A stretch of 64,000 nucleotides of DNA, from contig NZ_JHEH01000001.1 of assembly GCF_000715505.1 (NCBI RefSeq), forward strand, positions 124,001-188,000, read 5' to 3'. The translations under genes were made by a program, and so were the position numbers. Source of the stretch: Thioclava dalianensis (GTDB lineage Bacteria > Pseudomonadota > Alphaproteobacteria > Rhodobacterales > Rhodobacteraceae). The number at the start of each line of letters is the position of its first letter. The stretch's first letter is position 1. Below are positions 28,494-31,921 of the stretch, in pieces. The notes under the pieces are model-generated. The model saw nothing but the letters and a program-made list of their open reading frames with translations. It was not told the DNA's origin and did not search any database.

Positions 28494-28576
28494 ACGCGCT
28501 TTGCGGTTGAAAGCGCGCCCGTGCAGGCTTATGTTTCGCGCCAGAAATATCGTTTGGCTACATAAGGATTCCCACC

Positions 28577-29119
28577 ATAGCCCGCAGACCTCATAACGCC
28601 CCGCCGACCCGTGATACCGGACCCCGAGTCAACGGTCGAATCCGCGCTAACGAAATCCGCCTGATTGGGGCGGAGGGCGAAAATGTCGGCGTCGTGACGC
28701 CGCAAGAAGCCATGGGCATGGCCGAGGAAGCCGGGCTGGACCTGGTGGAAATCTCGCCCAATGCCAATCCGCCGGTCTGTAAGATCATGGATTTCGGCAA
28801 GTTCAAATATGAACAGCAGAAACGCGAAGCTGAAGCGCGCAAGAAGCAAAAGATCATCGAAATCAAAGAGGTCAAGTTCCGGCCCGGCACCGATGTGCAT
28901 GATTACGAAGTGAAAATGCGCAACGTCATCAAATTCCTCGAAAATGGCGACAAGGTGAAGGTCACCCTGCGCTTCCGTGGTCGTGAGATGGCGCACCAGA
29001 ATCTGGGCCTCGAACTGCTCAACCGCGTCCGCGACGATGTGGGCGAATTGGGTAAGGTCGAAAGCATGCCCCGGCTGGAAGGCCGCCAGATGGTGATGAT
29101 GATCGGCCCGACCCGCTAG
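28577..29119 (+). CDS. infC: Translation initiation factor IF-3 with an ATA start codon
   Basis: The full frame gives 180 residues only if translation begins at ATA (28577): [20 protein letters not shown] follows, the usual N-terminus of IF-3 in this group. An AAGGA lies 8 bp upstream. The first GTG in frame (28694) would delete 39 residues of the N-domain. IF-3 binds the 30S subunit and discriminates against non-AUG starts, so a rare start on its own gene (AUU in E. coli) is a known autoregulation device. Core motifs: [51 protein letters not shown] possible promoter has TTGACA at 28415. A terminator follows. Confidence 0.96.
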
Positions 29120-29145
29120 GCGTCTCGCATCTTGAGACCAGATCG

Positions 29146-29173
29146 AACCCTCCCTGACTGGGGAGGGTTTTTT
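29146..29173 (+). terminator. Rho-independent terminator of infC
   Basis: AACCCTCCC / GGGAGGGTT stem with a six-base loop, then a T6 run. It begins 26 bp after the infC stop. Confidence 0.92.
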
Positions 29174-29260
29174 CATGCCCGCCGCATGAGCCTGGTCCGG
29201 ACATGGCCGAGCGGACACCTGCTGCGCCGAATCGCTCGCATCAAAAAGCTCGGGCGCCAT

Positions 29261-29376
29261 ATAAAAGCGCCGCAGGTGGGAGACCTGCGGCGCATTGGGG
29301 AGAGACGAGGGAGATCGTCAATCCTCGGTCGGGTTCGCTTGGCAATAGCCACGATTGGGAGATCTCGAACCCGCTG
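29261..29376 (-). ncRNA. Candidate FNR-controlled small RNA with four UCUCCC motifs
   Basis: The gap 29174-29528 has no convincing gene, but on the minus strand it has the parts of a small RNA unit. An FNR box is centred at 29417.5; a class II geometry (-41.5) puts the start near 29376, and exactly at -12 to -7 lies TATCAA. The predicted RNA of about 115 nt ends with an 11-bp stem (29267-29277 with 29283-29293) followed by UUUUAU. UCUCCC occurs four times (plus-strand GGGAGA at 29357, 29309, 29298, 29278), the last forming the terminator loop. UCUCCC can pair with GGGAGA-type Shine-Dalgarno sites. No ORF starts inside. It could instead be a 3' UTR of the leftward gene ending at 29529. Confidence 0.6.
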
Positions 29377-29410
29377 CACGTTTTGATATGGGAGTATCTT
29401 TGTGCTGCCC

Positions 29411-29424
29411 TTGATGTAGGTCAA
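29411..29424 (-). promoter_or_regulatory. FNR/FnrL-type box TTGAT-N4-GTCAA
   Basis: TTGATGTAGGTCAA matches TTGAT-N4-ATCAA at nine of ten positions. It is the only box of this quality I saw in the window. It is placed at -41.5 relative to a fitting -10 for the leftward small RNA; there is no rightward gene to drive, since the next gene is convergent. Confidence 0.65.
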
Positions 29425-29528
29425 AATTCGAACCGAGGAAACTGCGACAGACTGTCCTCGGGGTCACGTTTCTGGCAGCGTTTGGTGAGACCGGCGTGAG
29501 GCGCTGCGGCGCGGCATTGGCGGTGCGC

Positions 29529-31754
29529 TCAGTCCAGATCGCGCATCGCAAGACGGATCGCACGATTTTCGCCCTGCGCCAGCACCGCCGCCCCCATCCG
29601 CCGCGCAAGTCTCTTATGCCCGGCCTTCACGGCGCGCTGGAACAGCTCGCGCTGGTAGCGCGGAAATGTCCGGCGCGCGCGCAGGGCACGGTGAAAGCTT
29701 GCCTCGCTCAGCGTGCCCTCCAGCGCGCTCAGAAGGATCGGCGTGAGAATACCCATCTGGTGTAGCGACGAGCCGAGCCTGTGGCCCAGAAGCGGCGTGC
29801 GCAGCTTCATCACATTGGCCCCGTCGAACCGCGCGACATGGCCCGCATCAAGCGGCTCATAGGGATCGAACAGGATCGTCACCCGTCGCGCCGCGAGCGA
29901 GGCCTGCGCCGCATCGCCATATTTGCCCGAAAAGTCACGATCCCATGCCACCTTGTAGCGGGTCTCCCAAGGCACAACCGATTTATCGAGCGTGGATTGC
30001 GGCGAAATCGCCACCACATCGGCCCCCGGACAGGCCGCCGAGAAGGCCGCCGCCGCATAGCCGCCCATCGAGGCGCCATAGAACACCACGCGTTTGAACT
30101 GCGCGAAGAAGCCCTCCTGCGCCAGACGGTCAAATTGCGCGCCAACCCAATCGTCGCGATACCATGTCCAGCCGCCCGCCATCGCGCCCAGCATCGACCA
30201 GCCCTGTTTCTCGATGAACTCGAAGCCCCAAGGCCTGCGCGTGTCGCGCTTGTTCATCGCGATATCGAGATTGTCGAAGGTCACCACCAGCGTGTCGCGC
30301 GAGCGCGGCATGTAGAGAAAACTATGCGCCCCGTTGTCGATATAAAAGCCGTCCGGCCCGGCCAGCTTTGTGGCCAGCACCGCCCAATCCGGGTCGCTCA
30401 CCTGCTCGGCGGGCGGTGTGGGCGTAAAGACGATCCGCGTGGTCTTGCCACCGCCGCCATCAGAGCTTTCCTCCAGCGGCTCATTGGTGCCAAACTCCTT
30501 GAGGAAGGGAAATGCCCCCGAGCCTTTGCGAATATCCATCAGCATGTGGCTATCCGAATGAAGCGATTCTTGAAGAATGGGCCTCAAGTGCTTGACCTTG
30601 TTCACATCTCCAAAGCCTGCAATATTGAGCAACAGATCCACTGGCCGCAAATCGCCCGGCGCTCCGACCCGTTTGATCCGCGCAGGATCGACGCCGTGCT
30701 CCTCCAGATAGGCGCGGTATTGCGCCACCCAATCCGAGGGCTGCTCGGGCCATGTGCCATCGCCCAAAAGATCGATCAATGTGATGTCGCAATCCCAACG
30801 GTCATGCGCCCCAAGCACCAGCCCCGGTGCCGTCCCCCCCAGATCGGCAATCGATGACAACGTGGAGATGCCCGCGCTCTCAAGCAGCGACAGATCCGGG
30901 CCTTTCTGATCGAAAACCAGTCTCGCACGCCCCTTGATCGGCGCAAAATCGGGTCGAATGGCGTGTTTTTTCAAAAGCTTGTCGAGGAAACTTCCCGCAG
31001 GCGGAATGCCGTCATAACGCAAGCCCAACTCGCGTTTGTTAGAGGCCCAAAGATGCAGCGCGGTGGTCTGATCGGTGATCGCCCCTTCGACCTTAGAGGC
31101 CTCGCGGATCATCATCGTGCGCTCGCGAAAGGTGACCGGGTAGAACGCCTCAAGCGGCTGCACCCGGTCATGCAGGCTAAGTTCTTCAACGAAATGCGAG
31201 AGCATCATCGGCCCCCAAACACCCCAAGGCTGCTGGCTGACATGGACCGGATTTCCGGCGCTGGCCGCGGCCTCGTATTCGGCGCGGTGCTTTTTCTTCA
31301 AGAACGACGGGATCGCGTAACGATCAGACATAAAATCAATCATTTGCGAGACGATCTTCGAGTCATGCGGCAGCCCCAGAACCGCGTTATTCACCCGTGA
31401 CTCACCCGGCAGTTCATAGCCCAGAACATAATCGCTCTCATAGGTCATCGGCGCCCAGCAATAGACATCGGTATCGACCCAGATCATCCCCGGTATCTGC
31501 GCGATCATGTGGATGCGGAAATAATCGGCAAAGAGCGCGAAACTGTCCTTCTTCTCATATTTGATGAAGTCATCCGTATCGAGGATCTCGCGCCCGTCGC
31601 GCCGAATGACACCCTCGGGGACATTGGGGATATCTTCGTAGGAAAACAACGTGATGCGTTGCCCGGCATCAACAAAACTTTTCAGACAGAGCTGCTCCAT
31701 CCAGCTCAGGGCACCGCCGATCCAAAGCGTCCCGACTTCCCGTTCGCGTGCCAT
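29529..31754 (-). CDS. Three-domain glycosyltransferase / methyltransferase-like / hydrolase-like fusion
   Basis: A 741-residue protein (start 31754, MAREREVGTLWIGG). Residues about 5-260: GT-A sugar-transferase fold, with FALFADYFRIHMIAQIPGMI followed by the metal-binding DTD (94-96), as in DXD-containing capsule transferases. Residues about 290-430: methyltransferase-like region with IADLGGTAPG (resembling SAM motif I) and ITLID, then VDLLLNIAGFGD. Residues about 470-700: alpha/beta-hydrolase-like domain with YGASMGGYAAAAF (nucleophile Ser562). The last part is paralogous to the protein at 35633-36571. Divergent from the large GT gene at 31922 (167-bp promoter region). Domain calls 2 and 3 are by motif only; the role in surface glycan assembly is inference. 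Confidence 0.78.
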   Translation of the reverse strand: MAREREVGTLWIGGALSWMEQLCLKSFVDAGQRITLFSYEDIPNVPEGVIRRDGREILDTDDFIKYEKKDSFALFADYFRIHMIAQIPGMIWVDTDVYCWAPMTYESDYVLGYELPGESRVNNAVLGLPHDSKIVSQMIDFMSDRYAIPSFLKKKHRAEYEAAASAGNPVHVSQQPWGVWGPMMLSHFVEELSLHDRVQPLEAFYPVTFRERTMMIREASKVEGAITDQTTALHLWASNKRELGLRYDGIPPAGSFLDKLLKKHAIRPDFAPIKGRARLVFDQKGPDLSLLESAGISTLSSIADLGGTAPGLVLGAHDRWDCDITLIDLLGDGTWPEQPSDWVAQYRAYLEEHGVDPARIKRVGAPGDLRPVDLLLNIAGFGDVNKVKHLRPILQESLHSDSHMLMDIRKGSGAFPFLKEFGTNEPLEESSDGGGGKTTRIVFTPTPPAEQVSDPDWAVLATKLAGPDGFYIDNGAHSFLYMPRSRDTLVVTFDNLDIAMNKRDTRRPWGFEFIEKQGWSMLGAMAGGWTWYRDDWVGAQFDRLAQEGFFAQFKRVVFYGASMGGYAAAAFSAACPGADVVAISPQSTLDKSVVPWETRYKVAWDRDFSGKYGDAAQASLAARRVTILFDPYEPLDAGHVARFDGANVMKLRTPLLGHRLGSSLHQMGILTPILLSALEGTLSEASFHRALRARRTFPRYQRELFQRAVKAGHKRLARRMGAAVLAQGENRAIRLAMRDLD

Positions 31755-31921
31755 TCCTGCCCCCGGCTGAGCGGCCTTGCGCCGCATTTCCATGATTTCG
31801 CCGCATCCTGCCCGAGCCTTTGCCATTTTCCAATGGAAATCAGGGACAAACCGAACGGGATCGTTTCCCGGGCGTGCACAGCCGTGCTAGAACGCCCCCG
31901 AGGCAGCAGGAGAGCGAACCA

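Follow-up and report, generated by a model that had tools for sequence, protein, structure and literature searches.

The 64-kb window analysed here, a 64,000-nucleotide stretch of Thioclava dalianensis DNA, contains between infC and a gene for a 765-aa protein an intergenic region that raises the question of whether an oxygen-controlled small RNA (sRNA) is encoded there and how it would act. An earlier note on this DNA had predicted on the minus strand an FNR-switched sRNA with four anti-Shine-Dalgarno motifs. The features assigned to the region are given in Table 1. That a real sRNA gene is present we consider close to certain; the whole reading, by which the gene would specify a free-standing sRNA that is activated by FnrL, acts in trans, carries three conserved anti-Shine-Dalgarno motifs and works in the manner of sX13 of Xanthomonas, is judged probable with appreciable room for doubt.

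Table 1. Predicted features of the sRNA locus and its neighbours (positions in the window)
Feature	Position	Strand	Basis or remark
FNR/FnrL box TTGAC-N4-ATCAA, class II position	29411..29424	-	sequence, conservation in Thioclava
-10 element TATCAA	29383..29388	-	sequence; 22-nt spacer to box
Predicted sRNA, about 115 nt	29262..29376	-	fold, covariation, covariance-model match 29257-29378
SL1, long stem with unpaired UCUCCC (29357-29362) and small inner hairpin	29330..29373	-	fold; stem covariation
SL2, stem-loop, loop is UCUCCC (29309-29314)	29299..29324	-	fold; loop UCUCCCU conserved
Fourth UCUCCC, in linker; not kept as such in relatives	29298..29303	-	
SL3/intrinsic terminator, 11-bp stem; UCUCCC (29278-29283) in and beside loop	29267..29293	-	
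T-rich tail TTTTAT	29261..29266	-	
infC (translation initiation factor IF-3), convergent neighbour; ORF as listed, true start possibly upstream	28694..29119	+	
765-aa protein, co-directional upstream neighbour	29529..31826	-	

Of the five window ORFs around the predicted sRNA, Pfam recognised an IF-3, a glycosyltransferase and an oxidoreductase, and two had no match; the 765-aa protein was without a match in Pfam or NCBIfam. At many of the examined loci, the gene for this protein lies next to the sRNA. The sRNA itself is overlapped solely by mechanically listed ORFs, and the same stretch in 14 Thioclava RNAs measures 122, 123, 125, 126, 127 or 128 nt, so that its insertions and deletions do not come in threes; the earlier remark that no ORF lies inside is fair on both counts. 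A simple scan of positions 28500-30000 found three terminator-like sites, of which 29293-29267 has the longest stem, and the terminator proposed earlier was confirmed in stem and tail. A likely infC terminator, absent from the output of the terminator scan, was seen by eye at 29150-29176 (+), where a CCCTCCC...GGGAGGG hairpin convergent with the sRNA is followed by a T run.

The predicted sRNA folds with -52.2 kcal/mol (z = -5.1), and none of 200 shuffles folded as well. An alignment of 31 distinct homologs (A4) has both-side changes in 15 of 26 stem pairs, versus 9.6 in shuffles and at most 8 with slid partners, and in 83 cells, versus 24.4 (sd 4.3) and at most 15, counts that lean towards the model because A4 was fitted to it. 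The unfitted alignment A2 gave 9 pairs and 17 cells versus 3.5 and 5.9; for further pair types in A2, the measure was equalled by 35 of 500 shuffles. Apart from the terminator stem, the loops are the most constant part of the RNA, with UCUCCCU of SL2 and CUCCCUCCC of SL3 kept at each position in at least 28 of the 31 homologs and, for SL1, GAUCUCCCU in at least 22. CUCCC is present in the inner hairpin as well in Phaeovulum, Frigidibacter and some further genera. For the copy in the window, the fold prediction leaves the UCUCCC of SL1 unpaired within the stem-loop and not apical. The C-rich loops of the earlier note are well supported by comparative evidence as regards the motifs of SL1, SL2 and the terminator loop, whereas relatives do not have UCUCCC at the linker position. 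The window contains 13 copies of UCUCCC, versus 34 expected by shuffling, and 4 of the 13 lie within 85 bases on the sRNA strand.

The FNR box had been placed correctly in the earlier note, but the letters quoted for it were those of the plus strand; the minus strand reads TTGACCTACATCAA. The -10 element stands as called, at class II spacing from the box. Class II FNR promoters have the box centred at -41.5, and TATCAA together with a box centre at this distance puts the predicted +1 at 29376, the start that had been proposed. The sequence TTGAYN4RTCAA is found once in the window, as the box of the sRNA (shuffles average 0.10), and a box followed by TA at the -10 spacing was also found once, versus 0.02 expected. 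All 14 Thioclava homologs found by BLAST have an FNR box at the same position, 13 of them fitting TTGAYN4RTCAA and one (G005) having one mismatch; in a 15th Thioclava copy (G004) the box, equally spaced, likewise has one mismatch, and the 22-nt spacer is preserved across the Thioclava copies. The divergent copies in G011 and G008 retain the box, the -10 position and the loops, and both of their upper stems are altered on both sides.

A covariance model (R1), built from the 14 Thioclava RNAs with box and -10 excluded, was searched against 394 genomes of the family with an E cutoff of 0.001 and with stricter filters, under which weak matches are lost, and the 200 nt upstream of the matches were then inspected. 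There were 29 matches. Each of the 10 that exceed 50 bits (2 from Thioclava, 8 from other genera) is preceded by a perfect FNR box whose centre lies 38-39 nt upstream of the model start, and one fixed distance in 10 of 10 cases is not accidental, because chance supplies about 0.1 box per 64 kb. Among the 19 weaker matches (29-44 bits), the box sits at -39/-40 in five, in one case with 9 of 10 letters, and four have one elsewhere within 200 nt (-11, -86, -95 and -141); 10 (10 of all 29) have no box within 200 nt upstream. The same genome as the window encodes FnrL (NF045989, E 2.1e-136), so the switch itself is present; cysteines and recognition helix were seen by eye in this protein, whose gene lies beside a divergent gene resembling hemN. 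The proposed FNR switch is well supported by this comparative evidence, and the sRNA is very likely activated by FnrL at low oxygen.

Above the box (29425-29520, minus strand), compared at the same place in L010-L020, the main-clade Thioclava share the blocks TCAC, ACGTGACC and TGTCGCAGTT, which are missing from G011 and G008. As a guess, these blocks could possibly be the site of a second activator such as RegA/PrrA.

BLAST homologs were found in 14 of 16 Thioclava genomes, and a second covariance model (R2) matched 15 of the 16 at E < 1e-12; G012 is counted as lacking the sRNA because its R2 match has E 0.065, no CUCCC and no box. The window copy appears in the R1 and R2 searches as G000:C1:153257-153378. 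Across the family, R2 reached at least 79 bits in 10 of 394 genomes and 9 of 393 genera, a patchy presence, and at E up to 0.01 it matched 33 of the 394 genomes, some of these matches not being credible. The genome collection was also scanned for a box together with the terminator loop, so that the box is present by construction, and at least 118 loci were returned; among the 80 listed, 22 exceed 50 bits with R1, and chance matches account for many of the others. These 22, among the loci listed, belong to Thioclava (5), Rhodobacter (5), Sinirhodobacter (3), Defluviimonas (1), Phaeovulum (2), Frigidibacter (2) and others (4, mostly metagenome entries), the Rhodobacter carriers among the loci listed being capsulatus, viridis, maris, aestuarii and TJ_12. 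The earlier note had looked to conservation beside infC for support: box, loops and terminator do recur, and IF-3 is encoded at 22 of 32 loci examined, several of the misses being short loci. Five loci, from Frigidibacter (two), Solirhodobacter (one) and Rhodovulum (two), had no match to any of the five neighbour proteins in the stretch examined. The predicted sRNA family is present in several genera of Rhodobacteraceae, mostly near infC. In R. sphaeroides (G082, which we infer to be strain 2.4.1), no credible homolog was found, R1 giving a partial match only (E 6.9). Six published ChIP intervals of this genome, chosen from a table of CrpK sites among those not marked as unbound by FnrL, were inspected; a perfect FNR box is present in all six, and no C-rich array was seen by eye within 170 nt of the boxes.

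At six Rhodovulum loci (L107, L126, L143, L158, L176 and L178), the centre of the FNR box lies 90-96 nt above the model start, the hairpin array is longer and has CCUCCC-type loops, and the -10 departs from the spacing seen in Thioclava; these forms look like a longer relative of the same RNA. Weak matches with a box at about the same distance were found in G055, G135, G262 and G250, in G213 (R1 only), and in G329 and G351 (R2). A larger superfamily is pointed to because of the weak boxed matches and the longer Rhodovulum forms, and we put forward tentatively, at somewhat less than even chances, that FnrL-switched arrays of three to four hairpins with CUCCC/CCUCCC loops occur across Rhodobacteraceae and compete, under oxygen control, for a class of Shine-Dalgarno sequences. 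Other C-rich three-hairpin RNAs with weak model matches were noted at L033 (G237), L034/L234 (G380) and L166, with no FNR box in the 130-260 nt inspected; further out, about 480 nt upstream, L034 does have a box, and other C-rich hairpin loops lie in between.

No Rfam family matched at its gathering score anywhere in the 64-kb window, and 13 sub-threshold matches in 29230-29450 include none to FnrS, of which the library presumably contains a model. The earlier opinion that no described RNA matches this one holds for Rfam, and nothing in the literature searched was recognised as a description of it; an unnamed entry in the R. capsulatus sRNA catalogue may possibly correspond to it (Grull et al. 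2017). sX13 of Xanthomonas has three stable stems and C-rich loops and represses mRNAs via G-rich motifs near translation starts (PMC3771888). The three stems with C-rich loops in the predicted sRNA are a likeness that supports a similar way of working, not membership; sX13 differs in its CCCC/CCCCC loops, compared with UCUCCC here, and in its position at the polA locus (PMC3771888). The sX13 model RF02232 scores 20.1 bits, against a gathering score of 50. We know of no FNR control of sX13. FnrS, to our knowledge not an array of C-rich loops, gave no Rfam match to the sRNA of the window, which resembles it in having a predicted FNR box at class II distance from the -10. E. coli FnrS is an FNR-activated free-standing sRNA that turns down genes once oxygen is gone (PMC8139620). 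Membership among the CcsR/CIN1 RNAs was rejected, since no DUF1127 was found by Pfam among the five neighbouring ORFs and there is no second copy, the second R2 match in the same genome (E 0.027) being without CUCCC and box. RNAs of CcsR/CIN1 type in Rhodobacteraceae have a C-rich loop motif; unlike them, the window sRNA is single-copy beside infC and has its own FNR box. CcsR1-4 are four RNAs co-transcribed with a DUF1127 gene (PMC10253847). As judged from sequence comparison, the conserved RNA of the window represents a kind of FNR-induced sRNA with an sX13-like body, very probably activated by FnrL, of which the literature searched holds no description.

If the sRNA works as proposed, [4Fe-4S] FnrL would bind the box when oxygen falls and recruit RNA polymerase, the sRNA would accumulate, and the presented (U)CUCCC(U) motifs would pair with Shine-Dalgarno sequences of GGGAG type in a limited number of mRNAs, whose translation would be repressed. 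The search for targets covered 2.4 Mb (60% of a 4.0-Mb contig) of the Thioclava genome G007, where a home-made script based on codon usage called 1798 genes with approximate starts. Of the 1798 predicted ribosome-site regions, 69 contain GGGAGA, versus 7 for interior windows of the same genes, and the loop complements belong to the Shine-Dalgarno variants of this genome. Pairing of loop segments with the ribosome-site region fell below -16 kcal/mol for 284 of 1797 genes, with 115 for gene-interior windows and 194-307 for five shuffled loop sets; the loops fit ribosome sites no better than shuffled C-rich segments, because 284 lies within the latter range. This lack of a duplex excess fits a small number of specific targets, yet gives no support to pairing. 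Two of the top candidate targets were rejected: secF, whose complement GGGAGATC is kept in 6 of 21 genomes inspected (28 have the gene), and a CRP/FNR-type regulator, whose gene is present in 2 of 28 genomes. Further candidates of the scan, named by eye from sequence, are cytochrome b, coaD, a carboxynorspermidine-decarboxylase-like gene, the RuBisCO large chain and nuoK. The earlier suggestion that the RNA blocks many GGGAGA-type sites gained no support, duplexes not being above those of shuffled loops and two candidate targets being poorly conserved.

The same results bear on whether the sRNA would instead be an FnrL-induced sponge or decoy, whose C-rich loops sequester a G-rich sRNA or dock an RNA-binding protein or chaperone. 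Threefold repetition of similar short loops is how a sponge would be expected to look, and no conserved mRNA target was found in the G007 scan or in the comparison of secF and the CRP/FNR-type gene; against this, sX13, which is alike in architecture, represses mRNAs with G-rich motifs near their start codons (PMC3771888). We regard a sponge as unlikely, though deserving attention, and somewhat favour the view that the sRNA acts mainly by pairing with ribosome-binding sites.

The earlier note had itself considered that the signal might be the 3' UTR of the gene at 29529, or a processed 3' fragment of it. This gene is on the same strand as the sRNA, with 104 nt from its stop-codon end to the FNR box, but the conserved box and -10 separate gene and RNA, and the upstream gene (picked by eye among listed ORFs) is divergent in R. 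capsulatus (L159), as is the nearest recognised upstream gene at no fewer than three further loci (L179, L136 and L171), while the two Frigidibacter loci that lack all five neighbour proteins have no such gene in the stretch examined; a 3' UTR origin is accordingly disfavoured and seems very improbable. The L159 locus of R. capsulatus lies between an L,D-transpeptidase gene and this divergent gene. The stretch examined in T. sediminum (L123) likewise did not reveal the 765-aa gene, though an uncharacterised 109-aa ORF in the direction of the RNA overlaps the gap there.

GGA in loops is a CsrA signature, and the functional transcript could on that ground be the opposite strand, with GGGAGA hairpins forming a sponge for a CsrA/Rsm-type protein, all the more as a palindromic FNR box by itself gives no direction. 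The simple scan, however, found a terminator with a T tail on the minus strand only, the -10 is on the minus strand, and the stems contain G-U pairs 24 times versus 10 for A-C, which favours the minus strand as the RNA; we give the opposite strand scarcely any credence.

That the free-standing sRNA is the Thioclava counterpart of PcrZ, a PrrA/FnrL-dependent sRNA of R. sphaeroides induced at low oxygen (PMC8139620, PMC6238624) and published as 136 nt at position 2,565,820 (PMC6238624), can be practically dismissed despite the shared link to FnrL and low oxygen (PMC8139620), because PcrZ as compared by eye in G082 differs in sequence, contains no CUCCC and lacks an FNR box within 520 bases upstream, and R1 gives in that genome only the partial match elsewhere. 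An FNR box lies 51 bases beyond the end of PcrZ in G082. The sequences already contradict this identity, and at most a shared origin too remote to detect would be left.

An FNR-controlled sRNA of the kind predicted here would explain effects of FnrL on genes that FnrL does not bind, and would also explain the action of FnrL at sites without an obvious gene. In R. capsulatus, according to one study, ChIP-seq called 34 FnrL peaks without a neighbouring expression change, and an fnrL deletion strain exists (PMC4634722); since R. capsulatus also has a copy of the sRNA, the idea is testable at once. Among the scattered sRNAs with C-rich loops, it would moreover be a further case, one that responds to oxygen.
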